Shown: positions 20,957 to 31,758 of the stretch, in pieces
Layout of the letters: every line of letters starts with the position of its first letter
Numbering within the stretch: the stretch's first letter is position 1
Assembly: GCA_015232015.1 (NCBI GenBank)
Contig: JADGAM010000008.1
Span: 1 to 46,820 of the forward strand
From: Oligoflexia bacterium
Lineage (GTDB): Bacteria; Bdellovibrionota; Bacteriovoracia; Bacteriovoracales; Bacteriovoracaceae
Length of the DNA stretch: 46,820 bases
Reading direction: 5' to 3'
Made by a program: the position numbers and the translations under genes
Notes under the pieces: model-generated
The model's database searches: none
What the model was told of the DNA's origin: nothing
The model's input: the letters and a program-made list of their open reading frames with translations, nothing else

Positions 20957-23900
20957 TTAAAAACTAAAAACATCGATCTCTGTATAGAAAGTTCCTTCAC
21001 CAATATCTGCAGAAACCCACATTAGAAAGCGAAATGTACCTAAGCTTTCCGTTGTTGTTCCTTCTTTATTACCAACAACAGAAGATAGGTGAACACCTCC
21101 TTCTGCTAAATGCTGATCATTCACTCGTGCAATCAGTTGCCAATCTTGCTTTGAGAGATGATTGAAATTGGGATTATCTTTATTAGAACCTAACAGAAGA
21201 AAATATTGAGGGGCCCGATTATAGCGATGCCGTGAATAGGTATTTATCTTCGCTAATGGAACGCTCTTTTTTAAATCTACTACAAATTTACCGATAGTGC
21301 CGTCATACCATACACAGCGATCTGGATCATCGTCATTTTGTGCATAATCACCATCATGAAGTCGTGGTAAATTTTTTCCTTGCGCTCCAGAGCGAGAATG
21401 AGGAGAGGCACCTACATAAAAAAGATCTGTATTATTTCCGCTATGACTATCAATAAAATCACTTTTGCTAGGAGCTCCTCCCACTAATTGATCAAAGGAT
21501 TGTGCTCGCTCAGTAGATGCAGTTCCTAAGGGAACATCATTATAGAATTTTTCAAAATCATCACTGCTCGCCTCTTCAGTTGGTTGGCGAATCACTCTTC
21601 CATCGAAATTATCATAGAGATCTACTGCTGCTTTGGTTGATTGGTTCAAATCATTAGCAAGCGACATGGCCATGATTTTTATTTTAGAATTTTGTGGCAA
21701 AGTTATAGTTTTGGCCCCAGCAGGAAGATTGATTGCATATTGAAAGAGATAACTAAAAATATAAGAATCATTTTTTCCTGTTTTAAGATGTCGGTGAGTT
21801 GCAAACCAGGCCACTTTATCTCTTTTGATAAATCCTGGAATCAGAGATTTAAGGTTCTTTTGGGAAAAACCAAAAATTCTTTTATCAAAGTTACCGATAC
21901 TACCCCACCATTTTTGGATGTTTAATTGCTTAATATTACCATCGATCTCAAAATTTCCTACTGTATCTTCAGATGCGGTCGCAAGTAGATAGAGTACATT
22001 GTGATTATTGTGATTATTGTGATTATTGTGATTATTGTGATTATTGTAATTACCTGTCTCGATTTGAGGAAGAGCAATCTTTTGGCCAGCTGCTGAGATG
22101 GCATTGGGTTTACCTAGAAAAACATCTGCTAATACAAAATGAACACCATCAGAAGTAATTCTTTTGGGATAGAGTTCTGCAGGGTAGGACGCACCAGAAT
22201 TGTTAAAATCAGCATTGCTCATGTTATTATCAAAAGAGACAACATCACTGTTAAAGTAAAGAGAGAGATCTAGCTGATAAGAGCTTTTGGGTGGGTAATA
22301 AGGAGTGCTTCTTTGCAATTTAAAGGCAAAACTTTTAGGTGAATATTTACTCATATCCACTACTAACTTTCCGCTCGATATTTCCGCATTTTGTAGGTAT
22401 CGTTCTTGTCCATCAACTTCTACTACTTTTTCAATGGGCGAAGCAAATTCAACCTCAAATTGCTGAGTATTTTTGCCAGCAAGTTCTTGCAAACGAAGAA
22501 TATAGGTATCCTTTTGATCTTCGGCCCTTTTGAGAGCGGCAATGGCCACTTGTGAAGTTCCGATTTTAATGAATGAGAAAACCTGGCCATTAGCTCCCAG
22601 ATGTTTTGTTGTAGTAAAAGCGAGTAAAGGATTGTTGAGACGTGCCGCTTGCCAACTAGAATCACCTTTTCGCCAATCACCAGCATGTCCATAAATAGCA
22701 TATAAAAATTGGTGGTGACCAAAGTCTTGGGAAGATTCATGATGATATCCACCTTTATCAGTGTTTGGCGTATAAAGAAGAGTTAATCTAAGTTTATTAT
22801 CACTAGGTTTATCTGAGCCAAATTTACCATCCTCTAAGATTGAAACTCCGTAGCTCTGATTGCTATCGGTTAAATCAAACCATTGATGAGAGGGAACTTC
22901 ATACTTTTTAGGATCATTGTTTTTTCGTTCGATAGTTCCTACTCCTAGATTATAGGTTGCATTTGGATTTTGAACTGTAAGAGGAAATGCCGCTTTAAGC
23001 GATGAATTTTTAGTTAGCCAATCAATCGATGTGCTAAATTCAACTTGCTTACCACCTTTAGTAAGTCTAATTTCTTGTATAAACTTTGAATTAAGTTTCT
23101 CTCGAGTAATTTCTAAAGCAACTCTAACTGGGCCATTTTCAATGATACGAATATTTGCCTGGCCATCAACATAGGCATATGGCGGTTTTTTACGATCATC
23201 CCAATCCATATTCCATGCTGGCCATTCACGTGGTTGTTCATATTGAAATTCAAGGCGAGCGGGCGCTTGCAAGAGCTCGCGCTGATTTGCTTTATCAAAA
23301 ATGGAGGCCACATCACCGTTTCCATTTATTGTTACAACAAGATTTTGGTTTTCAATTGTACGCGCCGAGATCTTTATCTCATTGTCTGCGATCTCATTGT
23401 CTGCGCTAAAGGGGGTAGCAGATGCACGAACATCATAAATTTTCCAACCCACAGACGGAATTTTTCCCAGAAAAATAATTTCGAGAGAATTATTTTCACG
23501 CTTAATAATTTGCGATGGTACTTCTTCGCCATTTGGATCAAAAACCCGCACATATTGAGGAAGCGATTCAGAGTTTGAATTTGAGTTTGAATTTGAATTG
23601 GAGTTATAAATTAATTTTGCTGATACTACGTCTTCTCTAGGAATTGATAGTGGGTTATAAACAACTAATGGTCTTCCTTTTATCCCAGTATGTGTGTCCA
23701 TGGTTGCCGCCACCGCACCAACACTGTCCTCTAAACTTGCTGAAAACAAGTTCATTGCTAAAACTTCATCATTGTAAGAAAAATCGTAGGCGGCAGGTAT
23801 TGATGTTCCAGGAAGAATGTCATGCATTTGCGACAAAAGCACTCGTTCCCAGCCCGAATTGATTTTCTTTATTGGATAAGGAGCACTACCCATCCAATCG

Positions 23901-24937
23901 GCCACAACCGAAGCTTTTTCAGAAGCATCCGCCAGTAACTCATTTTTTCTATTCCATCTTTTCATGTAGGCCTGAGAGGATAAAGAACCGGTCGAATGTT
24001 CAGTTAAAAGTAGATCCCCTTTGTACTTAGGCAATCTATTTTTTTGTTCTGTAGTAATATCACGAAAAATTTGATCAGATGATGCCGTAACAACTCTAAT
24101 TGGCCAATTGGTTTCAAGACTCCTCATAACATTATTAACATCTTCTGACCGGGGAGCGCCTCCTCTATCACCAACACCATAATAGTGAAAATCAGCAAAG
24201 ACTCCGTAGAGTTTTCCATTTTCCATAACTCGATTAACCCATGTACGATCTTGTTGTAATGGAATTTTTACTTTCCCAACATAGTCACCTGGGTTAAGGG
24301 CCGCTATTACAGATGCGCCATCAGGCCCCTCCCAGGTACCCAAATTAAAAGGAATGCCCACTGCTGATCCCCACGTTAATTTTTGGGTTGAAAACCCTTT
24401 GATTCCAGCATGGGCCCAGATGGAAGGTAGCGAGGCCGGGAAACCAAAACAGTCTGGCAGCATATAATCAATGCTTTCTTTGCCAAATTCCTGACGAAAA
24501 AAATTATTTCCATATAGTATCTGTCTGAATAGAGACTCAGAGGAAGGCACATTAACATCACCCTCATCAACCGAAGAGCCCGAAACAAACCAGCGTCCTG
24601 CTTTCACATATTCTTTAACTTTTTGATACTCGTGTGGATAGTACTCTTTTAACATTTTATAGCGAGCGGAACCGCTGAAATTAAAAGTATAGTCAGGAAA
24701 ATTATCAAAATTACTGAAATTTTGCTCGAGCGTATCTTTTAAATATTGTTCTATTGTATCCTTATAAGTCCATTGCCATTGGGTATCTAGATGAGCATAT
24801 CCCACGACATATAGAACTGGATCAGCAGCAGACAAAAGTTGGGCCTGAGCTGACCTGGTTTGTATAAATGTTATTGTTAGACTTATAAAGAGAGCAAATG
24901 AAAGTGAAAGTGAAAAAATACCTTGTGTTTTGTTCAT
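20957..24937 (-). CDS. exported GH38 alpha-mannosidase with C-terminal carbohydrate-binding-like module
   Basis: 1326 residues from ATG 24937 (GGAAGG five bases upstream); a longer frame to 25024 lacks a signal-peptide start. A signal peptide ends near SAQA. The GH38 N-terminal domain carries AHLDTQWQW (His49, Asp51 as zinc ligands) and PDCFGFPASLP with the expected nucleophile Asp162. Middle domains cover about 330-900, as in mannosidase II-type enzymes. Two linkers are encoded by microsatellites: Asn-Ser repeats near 455 and Asn-Asn-His repeats near 980. The last 150 residues (LHDGDYAQND...TFYTEIDVF) look like a discoidin-type sugar-binding jelly roll. It should remove alpha-linked mannose outside the cytoplasm. 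GH38 enzymes are best known from N-glycan processing and degradation. Confidence 0.9.
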   Translation of the reverse strand: MNKTQGIFSLSLSFALFISLTITFIQTRSAQAQLLSAADPVLYVVGYAHLDTQWQWTYKDTIEQYLKDTLEQNFSNFDNFPDYTFNFSGSARYKMLKEYYPHEYQKVKEYVKAGRWFVSGSSVDEGDVNVPSSESLFRQILYGNNFFRQEFGKESIDYMLPDCFGFPASLPSIWAHAGIKGFSTQKLTWGSAVGIPFNLGTWEGPDGASVIAALNPGDYVGKVKIPLQQDRTWVNRVMENGKLYGVFADFHYYGVGDRGGAPRSEDVNNVMRSLETNWPIRVVTASSDQIFRDITTEQKNRLPKYKGDLLLTEHSTGSLSSQAYMKRWNRKNELLADASEKASVVADWMGSAPYPIKKINSGWERVLLSQMHDILPGTSIPAAYDFSYNDEVLAMNLFSASLEDSVGAVAATMDTHTGIKGRPLVVYNPLSIPREDVVSAKLIYNSNSNSNSNSNSESLPQYVRVFDPNGEEVPSQIIKRENNSLEIIFLGKIPSVGWKIYDVRASATPFSADNEIADNEIKISARTIENQNLVVTINGNGDVASIFDKANQRELLQAPARLEFQYEQPREWPAWNMDWDDRKKPPYAYVDGQANIRIIENGPVRVALEITREKLNSKFIQEIRLTKGGKQVEFSTSIDWLTKNSSLKAAFPLTVQNPNATYNLGVGTIERKNNDPKKYEVPSHQWFDLTDSNQSYGVSILEDGKFGSDKPSDNKLRLTLLYTPNTDKGGYHHESSQDFGHHQFLYAIYGHAGDWRKGDSSWQAARLNNPLLAFTTTKHLGANGQVFSFIKIGTSQVAIAALKRAEDQKDTYILRLQELAGKNTQQFEVEFASPIEKVVEVDGQERYLQNAEISSGKLVVDMSKYSPKSFAFKLQRSTPYYPPKSSYQLDLSLYFNSDVVSFDNNMSNADFNNSGASYPAELYPKRITSDGVHFVLADVFLGKPNAISAAGQKIALPQIETGNYNNHNNHNNHNNHNNHNVLYLLATASEDTVGNFEIDGNIKQLNIQKWWGSIGNFDKRIFGFSQKNLKSLIPGFIKRDKVAWFATHRHLKTGKNDSYIFSYLFQYAINLPAGAKTITLPQNSKIKIMAMSLANDLNQSTKAAVDLYDNFDGRVIRQPTEEASSDDFEKFYNDVPLGTASTERAQSFDQLVGGAPSKSDFIDSHSGNNTDLFYVGASPHSRSGAQGKNLPRLHDGDYAQNDDDPDRCVWYDGTIGKFVVDLKKSVPLAKINTYSRHRYNRAPQYFLLLGSNKDNPNFNHLSKQDWQLIARVNDQHLAEGGVHLSSVVGNKEGTTTESLGTFRFLMWVSADIGEGTFYTEIDVFSF
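22003..22047 (-). repeat. 9-bp coding microsatellite, five copies
   Basis: Five perfect tandem copies of a 9-base unit (GATTATTGT on the plus strand) encode the Asn-Asn-His linker of the alpha-mannosidase. Confidence 0.95.
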
Positions 24938-25032
24938 TATAACCTTCCATTGATGATTAGGCCTGGAAAAAAATAACTTAAACATTTTTATGTAATATTT
25001 CAACATATTTATGTATTTCGGCAATTTGGCAA

Positions 25033-25099: not shown

Positions 25100-26773
25100 T
25101 TAGAACATTTCACTCTCAAAATAATTTTCTTCTCCTCGAGAAGCAGCAGTCAATGCATATACAATTCTTCCTAAAGGTAATTTGAACTTTACTGCTTTTT
25201 TAGCATATTCGGCCCAATTTGCAGGTAATGCTTCAGTAATTGGATTCCATTTATTCGAAATCATTTTATCTAATGTCATATAAGGTTTGGCCCCAGGAGC
25301 AGGAGTCCACAAGAAGTCTGGATGAGAATCAGCATACCATTCTCCCCCTAGAATTTTACCAGTTTCGTCTAATTCTAAATCATAATAGTATTTAGCAGTA
25401 ACCAAAGAATCCAAAGTTGGATTATCATCTAATTGACTTGGATCAGTCTCCGCTAGATAGGTAATAGTCATCTTTACTCCTACTGCGTATTTTGCATCTT
25501 TTGAGCGGAAATTGGTAAATTTATCTTTAGTAAAATCTTTTAATAAAATAATAGCGCTTTTAGCATCAGAAAAATTTTCAGAAGTTTGTGGATTAAAATA
25601 GGTGTATTCATACGATAGCATCGGTTGATTCCAAACTTCATAATCATATATAGAATCGATGATAAAGCTCTTTTTTGCTAATCCTAATTGATTTACCACT
25701 GTCATATGCCATGTTCCCGGATTAGTATCAAAACATTCTGGATTCAAAATACGTCCACTAGTTGCATCTCTTTTTACTTCTTTATCCTTATCTTTAATTG
25801 AACATCTTCCTCCGGCCAAATATTGAGGGTAATTAGAATTGGCCCAAAAAAGAGAAGATAGTGCCTTTATGTCTGATGGATAAAAAGTGATTTTGTATTT
25901 GTTATTTAAAGAATTCACAATAACCGAATGAAGTGGCCGAGGAGACATGTAACTAGCTGCTGCCCAGCCATGACATATACCCATCCAGGTTTCAACTTTA
26001 AATTTTTCATTGTAATATTTTTCACCTTCTTTCCACATTGCTTTAGAGAGAGAGAACTCTTCATCACCAATTAAAAGATCATATTTTTCAGCAGGTGATA
26101 ACATATTAATTGTTCCCTTTTCTATATAATTTTGTGCTGGATTTTTTAAAACATATTGGTAATATTTTTTCCAACTACTGTCACGATTGAGTATCCGGTC
26201 CCATAAGTCGGTCAAGGCATCTTCAACAATTTCTGCATTAGGGTCAGCATAGCGAAAACCTAACCCTCCTTTATAAATAGGCCAATAATCATCTGACCAT
26301 GGTTGTGTCTCTAATGTGGCCTTGGTAAGACCTGCCTTATCAATATCAAAAATGTTTTTTATCATTGTCGTGCGATTGTAAACGATATTATCGGCCAAAT
26401 CATTTTCAAGATAAGCAGATCTAATATTAAAAAATTGTGAAACGTCTTTATTTTTATTATTTTGATTAAATTTTTTAAGAAGTCGATTGCGAAATGCATA
26501 TCTTATTCTCGATAATTTGCTTTTTTGTTCTTTCGTTAAAATTAATTTGGGAACAATCTCAGCATTAATATTTCTTTTAACTATTCTTTCACTCATCACT
26601 TTACTAGGGTTTTTAAAAAATCGTGTTAAGAATGTTTTGGTTTCTAGATCAAAGTTATCAGATGCCATAATTTTGCTAGCTGGATTCACCATCCCCAAAA
26701 ATAATAATAACAACAATGTTAATTTAAATTTAGTTAATTTAAATTTATTTGCATGGAATATTTTTTTACTCAT
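25100..26773 (-). CDS. secreted transglutaminase-elicitor-like protein A
   Basis: 557 residues. ATG 26773 has AAGGAG six bases upstream and overlaps the end of the subtilisin gene by 8 bases. An N-terminal signal peptide (a duplicated Lys-Phe-Lys-Leu-Thr, then a Leu run) ends near 37. The core matches the transglutaminase-elicitor family known from Phytophthora (GP42): GICHGWAAAS with putative catalytic Cys267, a SDIKAL motif at 300-305, GTWHM with His356, and VWNQP around 380. The C-terminal ELD..GKILGGEW..SHPDFLW segment is shared with protein B. Transglutaminases crosslink Gln to Lys in proteins; activity here is inferred from the conserved Cys/His. Confidence 0.78.
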   Translation of the reverse strand: MSKKIFHANKFKLTKFKLTLLLLLFLGMVNPASKIMASDNFDLETKTFLTRFFKNPSKVMSERIVKRNINAEIVPKLILTKEQKSKLSRIRYAFRNRLLKKFNQNNKNKDVSQFFNIRSAYLENDLADNIVYNRTTMIKNIFDIDKAGLTKATLETQPWSDDYWPIYKGGLGFRYADPNAEIVEDALTDLWDRILNRDSSWKKYYQYVLKNPAQNYIEKGTINMLSPAEKYDLLIGDEEFSLSKAMWKEGEKYYNEKFKVETWMGICHGWAAASYMSPRPLHSVIVNSLNNKYKITFYPSDIKALSSLFWANSNYPQYLAGGRCSIKDKDKEVKRDATSGRILNPECFDTNPGTWHMTVVNQLGLAKKSFIIDSIYDYEVWNQPMLSYEYTYFNPQTSENFSDAKSAIILLKDFTKDKFTNFRSKDAKYAVGVKMTITYLAETDPSQLDDNPTLDSLVTAKYYYDLELDETGKILGGEWYADSHPDFLWTPAPGAKPYMTLDKMISNKWNPITEALPANWAEYAKKAVKFKLPLGRIVYALTAASRGEENYFESEMF

Positions 26774-28286
26774 GATTACTCCTTATAAAATTGTCGAATT
26801 CACTAGGTAAAGGAATTACATACTCCAACTCTTTATATATTCGTGAAGTATTCGAAGGAGTTATTGGTCTCATTTGTGTATCTGCAGAAGAAAATGATTT
26901 TATCTCTTTTTTTGCTTTATCAATCGCTTGTGAAAGAGAATATCCATTTGAATATTTTGCCGCTAAAAGCGCCCTACTTTTATTTACAACTCCTGAACTA
27001 GCAATTTTCCCTTTTAAAGTTGCTTTATAATCAACTGTTTTTATAATAATTTCTTTCACGTTTGCAGGGGAAAGACGGGAGTTAATATTTAAAATTTCTC
27101 CAGCAATATTTGAAACGTATGGTGCTGCCTGGCTTGTTCCACTTAATGTTGCCGATTTGTTTCCAGGAATTACAGAGACAATTCCTACTCCAGGAGCTGC
27201 TACATCTACAGTTTTGTTTCCATAGTTAGAAAAACTTGCCAATTCACCAGAGTTTCTTGTAGCGGGGACAGGGCCTCTCCAAGCTCCTACTGATATAGTG
27301 TTTTCAAGTCTAATATTCGCAGGGGCCATATAATATTCATCGTTGTTGCTTCCATCATTACCGGCCGCAAATACAAATAAAGTATTGTTGGCAGATCCAT
27401 AGAGAGTTGTGGAATTTGCTAGTACTTGATAAAGGAAGTGGTTTCTAACAGAAAGTAATTCTTTTTTAGTAGGAAAACGTTTAAGAACCATTCGAAAAAA
27501 AGTAGTAACTATTTTTTCTCCTTGGACTATGCCAGTACCAAAAGAAGCATTTGCAACTTGAACACCAGTAGTGTCGATATATTTTATAATTTTTTGTACT
27601 ACTGCCAATTCTCGAATAACTAATCTTGCTAAAACGAATTTTACAAGATTTTCATTTGTTAAACCTTCCGCAATTGCATCCTTAATGTCTTTTTGAATAA
27701 CAATAGGAATAGGTAGATCTTCGATTCTAACATTTATATTATAATTATCTACTGGAGGTTTTGGAGTAGAAACAATTTTTATTATTTGTACTCTATTTTC
27801 ATTACTTTCATTAACTATAATACCAGAAACGTGCGTTCCATGGATATAAGTTCCTAGAAAAGTAATTTCTTTCATAAATTTTTTATCAGCTAATTTCTTT
27901 TTTATCCAAAAAATCTCATTAGGAGTGGCGGTTGCATAAGCAATTTTTGCCTCAATTTCTAAAAAGAGTTTATGTTCACTCGTAAAATCCACTGGATAAT
28001 TTGGGACCAGGAGTATATTGTTATCATCAACAAAATTCCAACCGAAAATATCATCAATGTGCCCATTATGATCATCATCTACAAAATTATTTGGTATCTC
28101 CAATTTGTTAATCCACAGGTGGTTTCTAATAATATTTGTATTTACATCTACTCCTGAATCAATAACCGAAATTGTCGATCCATATGCTTTTGTTAAAAAC
28201 AATGAATTATTTGAAAATAGTGCTAATGTTAATGTTAACAACACAAATCTTAGAATAAAAAAAAATTTTTGTTTTTGAATCCTCAT
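26766..28286 (-). CDS. secreted subtilisin-like serine protease (S8)
   Basis: 506 residues with an AGAGGT ribosome site before ATG 28286. A signal peptide (to about residue 36) is followed immediately by VIDSGVD; no I9-type propeptide is visible between them. The catalytic residues are all present: Asp43, His151 in GTHVSG, the oxyanion Asn309 in AAGND and Ser384 in GTSQAAPYV. The Asp-His spacing is long, with DDDHNGHIDD (69-78) between them giving a calcium-like loop. The C-terminal 90 residues are an extension without known domain. Its stop overlaps the transglutaminase-like gene, so the two are probably translated together. Confidence 0.92.
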   Translation of the reverse strand: MRIQKQKFFFILRFVLLTLTLALFSNNSLFLTKAYGSTISVIDSGVDVNTNIIRNHLWINKLEIPNNFVDDDHNGHIDDIFGWNFVDDNNILLVPNYPVDFTSEHKLFLEIEAKIAYATATPNEIFWIKKKLADKKFMKEITFLGTYIHGTHVSGIIVNESNENRVQIIKIVSTPKPPVDNYNINVRIEDLPIPIVIQKDIKDAIAEGLTNENLVKFVLARLVIRELAVVQKIIKYIDTTGVQVANASFGTGIVQGEKIVTTFFRMVLKRFPTKKELLSVRNHFLYQVLANSTTLYGSANNTLFVFAAGNDGSNNDEYYMAPANIRLENTISVGAWRGPVPATRNSGELASFSNYGNKTVDVAAPGVGIVSVIPGNKSATLSGTSQAAPYVSNIAGEILNINSRLSPANVKEIIIKTVDYKATLKGKIASSGVVNKSRALLAAKYSNGYSLSQAIDKAKKEIKSFSSADTQMRPITPSNTSRIYKELEYVIPLPSEFDNFIRSNHE

Positions 28287-28649
28287 TATTGTACCTCTTT
28301 TGTACTTTTTTTGTACCTCTTTTGTTCCTTACTAATATTTTAATTACAACAAATAACTTACTTTGAAATATATTTTTTCCCTAAATTAGGTAACGCCTTA
28401 CTGGTATTGTTTAAAAATAATAATTAGTCGCTGGCGCGAAAGCGACAGTGACTAATTAGTAAATCTATAATTTTCTAAATCTATAATTTGGTAAACACTC
28501 ACTATCGAAAAATTTTTTTTGACTTTTAAAAATGCTATTCGTATTTTGTAGTGTTTGTTATTTTTGATAATTTTTTTTGATAATATTTGCTTCTACTTAA
28601 TTTCAATCATTTTCTATTATTAAAAACAATATTTTCAAAGGAGAATCAG
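28287..28649. other. divergent intergenic region between the protease and second transglutaminase-like gene
   Basis: No gene is seen. It contains palindromic element copy 1 (28421-28460). Just before the protease there is a duplicated AAAGAGGTAC string (minus strand, about 28292-28322), of which the copy nearer the start is the ribosome site. Promoters for both directions must lie here, but I cannot fix them. Confidence 0.6.
28421..28460. repeat. palindromic intergenic element, copy 1
   Basis: An imperfect 40-base palindrome with outer arms TAATTAGTC / GACTAATTA and an inner CGAAAGCG core. By hand alignment, its reverse complement matches copy 2 (44574-44612) at 31 of 37 bases, and its forward strand matches copy 3 (45708-45748) at 32 of 42. 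Confidence 0.8.
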
Positions 28650-29852
28650 ATGAAATTGCTGGCCACAAAAATGCATTTTGTTTCTTTTTCAATTACGTTA
28701 CTATTCATGCTATGGTTACTACCATTAACAAAACTATATGCAGACACAGTTAATACAATTAATAGCGATAGAGAAGATGTAGACATTTCTACAGACCTCA
28801 TTGTGGATAAATCAGCATGGGATTCGGCCAATAATCCCTCTAACATAAATGAAGAAACTTCTGATCAAGCATTTGAATATAACTTTAATAGATTGCCAAT
28901 AAATGGTTCACTCGGTTATCAACCTTGGAGTGATAATTATTGGCCAAATTCTAAGGGAGGGTTGACCTATAGATGGCACTCACAAAGAGGTTTTGATCGT
29001 TTTCGATCTGCTCCTTCAAACAAACGAAAAGCTATGAGAATGTCTATGCGTAGAATAGCTGCATTATCACCTGCCGAAAAATATGACATCTTTACTGGGC
29101 GTTTTGATTATCCCCTTACAAGAGCAGAGAGAGCTAGAACTGCTGGAAGTGATGAAAAATGGGAAGGAATCTGTCATGGGCTTGCACCTGCTTCTTTCCT
29201 CTTTAAAGAACCAAAACCCGTTACACTAAGAAGTGTTGATGGAATTTTAATTCCTTTTGGTTCCTCAGATATAAAAGGATTATTATCGCTTCTTCAAGGT
29301 GAATATAATAAGAATGGTAAGAACTATTATGCAGGCAACCGTTGTAATGAAAAATTTAATGTACTTCGAGATTTTAATAGAAGCAATCCATGCTTAGATG
29401 TTAATGCTGGTGCTTTTCATGTTATCTTAAGCAATCGATTAGGAATTTTACATAGAGGTTTGGTAATGGATAAGGCAACAAATATAGAAATATGGAATCA
29501 TGCCCTTCTAGCTTATACAACTAAAGTAATTAGTTCAAGAAGACCATCTCGTGGGGCGGCCCGTAGCACAGTTAAAGAATTAGTAGTCTCAACAATTTTG
29601 ACATATACACTAGGAAGTGCTCAAAGTTTTTATCCAAATGACCCTGCAAGAAGAAAAGCTTTACGCCAAAACAAAGAATATAGATACATATTAGAATTAG
29701 ACAGTGATAGAAATATTGTTGGAGGTAAATGGATTTCCTCAGATTATCCAGATTTTTTATGGATACAAGATCGTGCAACTTTTACAAGCACATTTGAAGC
29801 TCTGGAAGAAATCTACAGACGTTCTATTGAATATAATGGAGATATATATTAA
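28650..29852 (+). CDS. secreted transglutaminase-elicitor-like protein B
   Basis: 400 residues. I start it at ATG 28650 (AAAGGAGA five bases upstream) and not at the earlier in-frame codon 28587. Residues 1-31 are a signal peptide. It shares the motif series of protein A at 25100-26773: QPWSD.YWP..KGGL, LSPAEKYD, GICHG.A.AS with putative catalytic Cys175, SDIKGL (206-211), the Cys232 block, GAFHV with His257, and a C-terminal LELD..NIVGGKW..SDYPDFLW. It is shorter than A and diverged, so the pair is an old duplication. It faces away from A across the protease gene. Confidence 0.78.
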   Translation: MKLLATKMHFVSFSITLLFMLWLLPLTKLYADTVNTINSDREDVDISTDLIVDKSAWDSANNPSNINEETSDQAFEYNFNRLPINGSLGYQPWSDNYWPNSKGGLTYRWHSQRGFDRFRSAPSNKRKAMRMSMRRIAALSPAEKYDIFTGRFDYPLTRAERARTAGSDEKWEGICHGLAPASFLFKEPKPVTLRSVDGILIPFGSSDIKGLLSLLQGEYNKNGKNYYAGNRCNEKFNVLRDFNRSNPCLDVNAGAFHVILSNRLGILHRGLVMDKATNIEIWNHALLAYTTKVISSRRPSRGAARSTVKELVVSTILTYTLGSAQSFYPNDPARRKALRQNKEYRYILELDSDRNIVGGKWISSDYPDFLWIQDRATFTSTFEALEEIYRRSIEYNGDIY

Positions 29853-29922: not shown

Positions 29923-29940
29923 ACCTCGTTGGGAGGAAAA

Positions 29941-31758
29941 ATGAAAAAGCATGTGTGTTTTATTTCTATCTCATTCTCTTCCTTATATTTTATCATAACA
30001 TATTTTATCACAACATATTTTATCACAACTTTCATAACAACATTTGCTCAAAACGCTTATTGTAGCAGCGAACTCCATGATCTAATTTCCCATAAAAAAA
30101 CATATCCCATTATCTATAAAGGAAAAGAAATACCATGGAAAATACAAATCAATAAAGATAACTCGGAAGTTAATTTTGTTTATAAATTTCCAGATCACGG
30201 TAAAAAAATCATTCAGGAAATACCATGTAGCTTAAAGCTTAGAGGTAAGCAGATACAATGTATCTCGAAAAATATTCCTCAAAAGATAATTGGGCATATT
30301 AACAATCGTTATGCCACTATTTGTGATGAAAATTACAAAGACGTCTGTGAACTTTATTTTTCTGAATTATTTCCTTCCAAACGAACAAGCGCATTTCCTA
30401 ATAATGCTACCCCTATTAAAACCATCACTCTATCTTTATCAGGCATTTTCAATCTCAACAAAGAACACATTCAAGGTTCCCCCGGTTCCAGTAATTTGCT
30501 TCCCACTTCTCATACTAATCTTTTTCCATTTATTTTATCCTCTCCTTTACAAGAGGAAGCTGGAAGTTGTCTTTATATGGCATCAACTGGAGCAGCGGAA
30601 ATCATACTAAATAAAAAACTGAATCAAGCTAATAGTAAAATGGATGGGGATACTGATTTATCTGAAAGGTTTCTCATGAATATTAGTACTGAAACGCCGG
30701 ACTTCGCAGTTAATACTTTTGAAAAATTTAATGTTGTTGAAGGAGGAATGTTAAATAGGGATTACCGTTTTACCAAAGGATATTATTCTCGCGATGAAAA
30801 CGGAAATATACTAAGAGATGTTCATTCCTCCCTTTATGGAACTTCTTACAATTGGATCGAAGAGGTGCCTAGCGATTACAAACTCAAATTAGTAAAAATC
30901 CCTTATTTAAAGAGAAAGGATATCTTTGTTAATGGTTATGGGCCTTGGGACATTGGAGTTATGAATGATGATGTAGTCAAAAACATTAAACATTATCTTG
31001 CAAAATATAATTCCCCTATTTTGTTTATCTACAATCATTATAACTACTGGCATGCAGTTTTAATTGTAGGTTATGACGATAGTGTTTATGTAGGAAACTG
31101 TCCATTTGTTTATAGTTCCAGAAAGTATTTTTTAGAGCAAAATGAACGAAGCTTAGTAGAAAAAATTGATAGTGCTTTAAAAAGAAAGGACTGTAAAGAA
31201 TATGGTGTTTTCTATATTCGCGATTCGTTGTTACACGCTAGTAACGACACTTATGTTTATGATAGAAACGCTGGAAGCAGAGGCATCGGTCATTATGCCG
31301 AAAAAATCATTAAACAATCATATGATTGGGCCAGAGTGCTTGGAAATACTGCCTATATGATATATACAGATGCTCCCAACAACCCAATAATCACACCACC
31401 AATTATTCCTCCTGCTCCTTCACGCATTGTAATTAAAGCAAGCGATTTCCAGGTTAAATTTAAAATTTCTTTATCATCACGTTCATCACGTTTATCGCGT
31501 TTTAATAAAAAACGTCTCTTCACTTTATATCTTAGTGAAATCAAACCTGGAGTTTTAAAATATGTTAAAAGTGTTAAATATGATGTACACCCAAGCTATA
31601 GATCAGCTCCCACTTGTTTTAGCAGCAACAAAAATTCACAATTTTCTTGTGGAAATTATATAATCTCTAAAAATGGTTTTAAAACTAGAGGAGCAAAAAT
31701 AACTCTAACAGATGATCAGGTTCTTACTCTCGATGAAGGAACCCAAATTTCCTGGTAA
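29941..31758 (+). CDS. secreted papain-like cysteine peptidase
   Basis: 605 residues from ATG 29941, with GGGAGG four bases upstream; a TTG at 29929 overlaps that site. The signal peptide core is a Phe-Ile-Thr-Thr repeat made by a 15-bp tandem duplication. The family pattern is Q204EEAGSC210 (oxyanion Gln and nucleophile Cys), His371 in YWHAVLIVGYDD and Asn386 in GNCPF. These match papain (C1-type) peptidases, although the usual GSCW is GSCL. The first 200 residues may be a propeptide or separate domain, and a beta-rich tail follows a Pro-rich linker near residue 490. It lies downstream of transglutaminase-like B and probably shares its transcript. It converges tightly on the next gene. Confidence 0.75.
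   Translation: MKKHVCFISISFSSLYFIITYFITTYFITTFITTFAQNAYCSSELHDLISHKKTYPIIYKGKEIPWKIQINKDNSEVNFVYKFPDHGKKIIQEIPCSLKLRGKQIQCISKNIPQKIIGHINNRYATICDENYKDVCELYFSELFPSKRTSAFPNNATPIKTITLSLSGIFNLNKEHIQGSPGSSNLLPTSHTNLFPFILSSPLQEEAGSCLYMASTGAAEIILNKKLNQANSKMDGDTDLSERFLMNISTETPDFAVNTFEKFNVVEGGMLNRDYRFTKGYYSRDENGNILRDVHSSLYGTSYNWIEEVPSDYKLKLVKIPYLKRKDIFVNGYGPWDIGVMNDDVVKNIKHYLAKYNSPILFIYNHYNYWHAVLIVGYDDSVYVGNCPFVYSSRKYFLEQNERSLVEKIDSALKRKDCKEYGVFYIRDSLLHASNDTYVYDRNAGSRGIGHYAEKIIKQSYDWARVLGNTAYMIYTDAPNNPIITPPIIPPAPSRIVIKASDFQVKFKISLSSRSSRLSRFNKKRLFTLYLSEIKPGVLKYVKSVKYDVHPSYRSAPTCFSSNKNSQFSCGNYIISKNGFKTRGAKITLTDDQVLTLDEGTQISW

Follow-up and report, generated by a model that had tools for sequence, protein, structure and literature searches.

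What does a subtilisin-like protease gene do between two genes of the type known from the Phytophthora protein GP42, and does the protease act on either of their products? The question is raised by a DNA stretch of 46,820 nucleotides (the window), which is contig 402 of a Bdellovibrionota MAG (4.9 Mb in 413 contigs) from Oligoflexia, a class within Bdellovibrionota. What is known of the GP42 family concerns mainly a Phytophthora surface enzyme that plants recognise. The two window genes of this type are referred to as TG1 and TG2, and the protease as S8; the sister species (G001) carries the same genes as L028, recorded as Oligoflexia bacterium nKLKbin12. As judged from sequence, gene order and structure models, TG1 is most likely a secreted pro-transglutaminase coupled to the neighbouring protease, probably for activation.

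The gene order proposed in an earlier, sequence-only reading is borne out by the open reading frames, the PF16683 profile and the match to the GP42 structure 3tw5: two transglutaminase-elicitor-like genes flank S8 (Table 1). The overlap of 8 bases between the protease and one of these genes, also described there, is exact and joins the S8 stop to the TG1 start (ATGAGTAA). A ribosome-binding-like AAGGAG lies just upstream of the TG1 ATG, within the 3' end of S8. The other copy faces away as stated, TG2 being divergent from S8 across 300 bp. TG2 comprises 421 aa when read from TTG, and the in-frame ATG at 28650 is its likelier start. TG1 is separated by 75 bp from the start of the long GH38 reading frame, the product of which contains NS and NH low-complexity runs. 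The REP-like palindrome gave 42 genome matches at E<=0.1, some of them representing both strands of one site; five Y1_Tnp genes are found in the source genome.

Table 1. Positions of the genes, motifs and other features in the window, with the basis for each assignment
Feature	Position	Strand	Basis
TG1, TGase_elicitor-family protein, predicted secreted, 557 aa	25100..26773	-	PF16683, 3tw5 match, structure model
TG1 residues 49-66, block LxxFxxNPxxxMxxxPxK ahead of catalytic core (putative pro-block)	26576..26629	-	alignment, pLDDT
TG1 residues 67-124, linker mostly of low confidence, K/R-rich (putatively cleavable)	26402..26575	-	pLDDT, alignment columns
TG1 Cys267-His268, family CH dyad	25970..25975	-	alignment and PMC10318531
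TG1 Asp301 of SDIK	25871..25873	-	alignment
TG1 VWNQP, letters identical to aligned GP42 stretch	25622..25636	-	alignment
S8 subtilisin-like protease, 506 aa, signal peptide	26766..28286	-	PF00082, catalytic motifs
Overlap of S8 stop and TG1 start, 8 bases (ATGAGTAA)	26766..26773	-	likely translational coupling
REP-like palindrome between S8 and TG2, dispersed in genome	28418..28461	.	genome matches
TG2, TGase_elicitor-family protein, shorter, signal-like N-terminus, without pro-block	28587..29852	+	PF16683, 3tw5, Foldseek
TG2 Cys196-His197 dyad	29172..29177	+	alignment
TG2 IWNHA replacing VWNQP	29490..29504	+	alignment
PAP, divergent papain-like (C1) protein, 76 bp after TG2	29929..31758	+	family alignment
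GH38 alpha-mannosidase-like, next same-strand gene after TG1	20957..25024	-	ORF and profile

TG1 and TG2 almost certainly belong to the GP42 transglutaminase-elicitor family, as sequence profiles and predicted folds both show. The sequence-only reading had proposed a search with the family profile and a structure prediction as checks. In the former, TG1 scored 139.7 bits (E 1.4e-40) and TG2 101 bits (E 7.8e-29) against Pfam TGase_elicitor (PF16683), far over the curated cut-off of 25 bits. The sole significant PDB sequence match was GP42 (3tw5), with E values of 8e-25 for TG1 and 2e-16 for TG2. The latter gave a GP42-like fold for both proteins (pLDDT 86.5 and pTM 0.85 for TG1; pLDDT 78.4 and pTM 0.75 for TG2). 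In a Foldseek search against the PDB, 3tw5_A was the only match at E<=0.001 for either model (TG1 E 1.4e-17, TG2 E 3.2e-18), with TM values by target length of 0.64 and 0.66, respectively.

The family is widespread, being present in 163 of the 291 sampled Bdellovibrionota genomes. About 17 TGase_elicitor paralogues occur in the source genome, which the sequence-only reading had missed. TG1 clusters with L029, L104, L101 and L118 in the tree, and TG2 is placed elsewhere with L105, L106, L120 and L121. A further protein (L098:5187-8786, G000:C80; 1199 aa) combines PKD-type regions with a TGase_elicitor domain; its score against GP42, 257 bits, greatly exceeds those of TG1 and TG2, and in the tree it falls with 3tw5 and the copies from myxobacteria.

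The active site was compared in a family alignment of 113 sequences (112 members and 3tw5), using the definition of the GP42 site given in PMC10318531. According to that source, GP42 has no His at the canonical papain-like position and uses the His right after the Cys (CH) together with Asn or Asp (PMC10318531). The Cys is conserved in 112/113 aligned sequences, the exception being 3tw5, a crystal form with Ser for Cys. The SD.K Asp is conserved in 107, the Asn (column 301) in 102 and the CH His in 100 of the 113. Both TG1 and TG2 have the Cys-His pair of CH with the Asp and Asn of the GP42 site. TG1 equals GP42 at the 21 checked signature positions save Cys/Ser; TG2 differs at four of them, with IWNHA for VWNQP and YPD for HPD. 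The motif GICHG...SDIK..L...H(M/V) described in the sequence-only reading is found in both proteins, and its Cys and Asp align with those of the eukaryotic enzyme. Its last His probably does not take the expected place in the site, which in GP42 is assigned to the CH His. The H(M/V) His is probably non-catalytic, since it varies in members that retain CH and PMC10318531 puts the His next to the Cys; F, L or Y stands there in several CH-retaining paralogues of the source and sister genomes, and a catalytic role was judged unlikely.

A GP42 fold might also serve a chemistry other than crosslinking, with TG1 and TG2 acting as cysteine peptidases, deamidases or amidases. Enzymes of the papain-like fold have diverse activities (PMC10318531), several source-genome paralogues (L106, L107, L109, L110 and L112) no longer have the CH His, and TG2 departs at VWNQP. 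TG1, however, retains all the checked GP42 signature positions, and this alternative is regarded as improbable.

The proposal that one protease serves both crosslinkers is not shown by the gene order. It is unsupported because TG2 and S8 are divergent and the nearest same-strand neighbour of TG2 is the papain-like gene. In the family alignment of the latter protein (PAP), Q208, C214 and H375 are invariant. The window PAP gave no match to PF00112, one relative (L135) reached 24.6 bits against the cut-off of 20.7, and other relatives were below it; the best profile-PDB matches were weak ones to cathepsins (E 0.026). Near the C-terminus of PAP there is a weak pYEATS match below the cut-off. A conserved TG2-PAP pair was considered and found weak: of the relatives of PAP that were surveyed, G020:C92 alone has TG genes as well, at a distance of about 2 kb.

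The S8 protease was rightly described as intact, as it matches PF00082 (Peptidase_S8; 108.2 bits, from residue 36) and has all the catalytic Asp, His and Ser motifs (IDSGVD, HGTH and GTSQAAP). A profile search of the protein detected no I9-type prodomain. The catalytic Asp is residue 43 and immediately follows the signal peptide, so the inhibitory prodomain usual in secreted subtilisins seems to be absent.

Three S8-TG loci are found in the genus: that of the window (same strand), C210 (convergent, with one LysR-like gene in between) and C14 of the sister genome (divergent). The adjacency is kept in two source-genome loci and one sister-genome locus at 59-69% identity with changed orientations, and the three loci probably share one ancestry. 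A unit of two TG genes plus S8 was rejected as a conserved arrangement; in the tree, the second TG of the sister genome (L118 10005-11048) falls with L109 instead of TG2. S8 genes are abundant; chance alone would yield about 0.17 neighbouring S8-TG pairs in each genome, and the S8 linkage on its own could have begun in this way. It might then have been copied by duplication and carry no functional meaning, which would fit the differing orientations of the three loci and the S8 paralogues that have no TG neighbour (G000 C144 and G001 C6). Such an origin does not readily account for the persistence of the adjacency through changes of orientation, nor for the pairs with C11 and C14 proteases found elsewhere, and there seems to be little likelihood that the linkage is without function.

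These other pairs extend the association of proteases with TG1-type genes to relatives. At 24 loci, 21 of them non-identical, a TG1-type gene is succeeded in the same orientation by a clostripain-like C11 gene (PF03415), with a spacing of -17 to +57 bp in 20 of the 24. Both WGHG and DAC motifs were found in 22/24 C11 partner proteins. Of the 23 C11 genes in the genomes of 59 relatives, 11 come immediately after a TG match, where a random distribution of the C11 genes would give about 0.02. The C11-TG1-type pairs occur in Bdellovibrionota and in a few Polyangia and Deltaproteobacteria MAGs. Caspase-like C14 genes adjoin TG1-type genes or lie in between them in cable bacteria, in a further MAG of the Desulfobulbaceae and in a Crocosphaera MAG. 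Signal-like N-termini are present in the C11-paired TG proteins and the majority of the C11 proteins, whereas the C14-paired TG proteins and the C14 proteins lack them; from these sequences, the C11-paired enzymes appear to be mostly exported, the C14-paired ones look cytoplasmic, and the compartments of the partners are in broad agreement.

Speaking against the coupling, no C11, C14 or S8 neighbour was found in 42 of the 71 TG1-type loci surveyed. Immediate C11 or C14 partners accompany 22 of 47 TG1-type proteins with a longer N-terminus versus none of 24 with a shorter one (Fisher p ~2e-5), a statistic confounded by phylogeny and start-codon calling. Many of the shorter proteins have no signal peptide or pro-block. 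Also against the coupling, TG1-type proteins L104 of the source genome and L114 of G001 have a long N-terminus yet no protease neighbour.

Other genes also accompany the family. A caspase-like gene and an unnamed gene of ~375-500 aa stand beside signal-less TG1-type genes at six loci from Desulfobulbaceae and the Crocosphaera MAG (L053, L056, L057, L058, L065 and L087). An unnamed family of 246-260 aa directly follows the TG gene at L012, L051, L067 and L072, and amine oxidases are found beside TG1-type genes at L061 (copper) and L114 (flavin). An anti-phage role was considered and set aside: PADLOC yielded generic caspase and subtilase matches and marginal candidates only.

The genes around TG1 could alternatively form an exoenzyme cluster, in which protease, mannosidase, amidase-like and transglutaminase-like products are co-secreted onto the same prey or polymer without mutual processing. 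The window neighbours would suit such a role, as GH38, papain-like, CBAH/C45-like hydrolase and 5'-nucleotidase genes are present and several neighbours have signal-like N-termini; at the TG1-C11 locus L044, two subtilases also lie within ~7 kb. Simple co-secretion, however, leaves unexplained both the close and frequent placement of C11 after TG1-type genes and the cytoplasmic TG-C14 pairs, and it is held to be unlikely.

The reading preferred here, that of a pro-enzyme processed by its neighbour, draws on the N-terminus of TG1. In the TG1 model, pLDDT is above 90 at residues 41-70, falls to 50-78 at residues 71-120, and the core is confident. The LxxFxxNPxxxMxxxPxK block is kept in most TG1-type proteins. 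Together the block and the following segment look like a pro-block with a linker. In the mechanism envisaged, S8 and TG1 would be translated together owing to the 8-base overlap; outside the cytoplasm, TG1 would most likely have its N-terminal block and its linker removed or cut by S8, and the cleaved pro-enzyme would become a Gln-Lys protein crosslinker at the cell or target surface. TG2 has no such block and would not obviously be served by S8. The neighbouring place is taken by a C11 protease in related bacteria and by a C14 protease in cable bacteria.

The recurrence of a protease neighbour in one branch of the bacterial family, that of the TG1-type genes, suggests that the crosslinker may be switched on by its neighbour. 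The idea that the protease may activate the crosslinkers, already put forward in the sequence-only reading, is made plausible by the C11 (24 loci) and C14 neighbours and by the block with its linker. In G001, however, the TG1-type protein encoded beside S8 has no pro-block, and this speaks against a simple cleavage model in that species. That TG1 and the protease next to it are functionally coupled is somewhat favoured, and activation by S8 specifically is a more tentative proposal; these two gradings, like that of family membership, are judgements and were not computed. The whole account, with GP42-family TG1 and TG2 secreted and a co-translated S8 cutting the TG1 pro-enzyme, is given slightly less than an even chance.

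It is conceivable, though rather doubtful, that bacterial GP42-type transglutaminases and proteases form a recurrent two-gene module in which the protease family is exchangeable (C11, C14 or S8) and the compartment matched. If this is true, bacteria would have a general system of crosslinking under protease control, with cytoplasmic versions linked to caspases among its forms. If the pairing is functional, it would offer a handle on the bacterial role of GP42-type enzymes and on how they are switched on. In one open-access collection, no relevant literature was found on transglutaminase with Bdellovibrio or predation, or with clostripain or zymogen.

Among the systems available for comparison, the TG1-C11 pairs of relatives resemble the window in having a protease beside a TG1-type gene and in being mostly exported; they differ in gene order, the C11 gene being placed downstream of its TG gene and the S8 gene upstream of TG1. 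With GP42 of Phytophthora sojae (3tw5; PF16683), TG1 shares the fold, the Cys and the next His, the SD.K-type Asp, the Asn, VWNQP and HPD..W. Unlike GP42, the window proteins are bacterial, with an identity of ~20% in structural alignment; TG1 has the additional conserved N-terminal block and the adjacent protease gene, and TG2 is altered at VWNQP and HPD. The transglutaminase of Streptomyces mobaraensis belongs to a different transglutaminase family from the GP42 type. It is made as a pro-enzyme activated by the protease TAMEP (PMC9052465) and so provides a precedent for the activation of a bacterial pro-transglutaminase by a secreted protease, while TAMEP, in contrast to the partners considered here, is not an S8, C11 or C14 neighbour.
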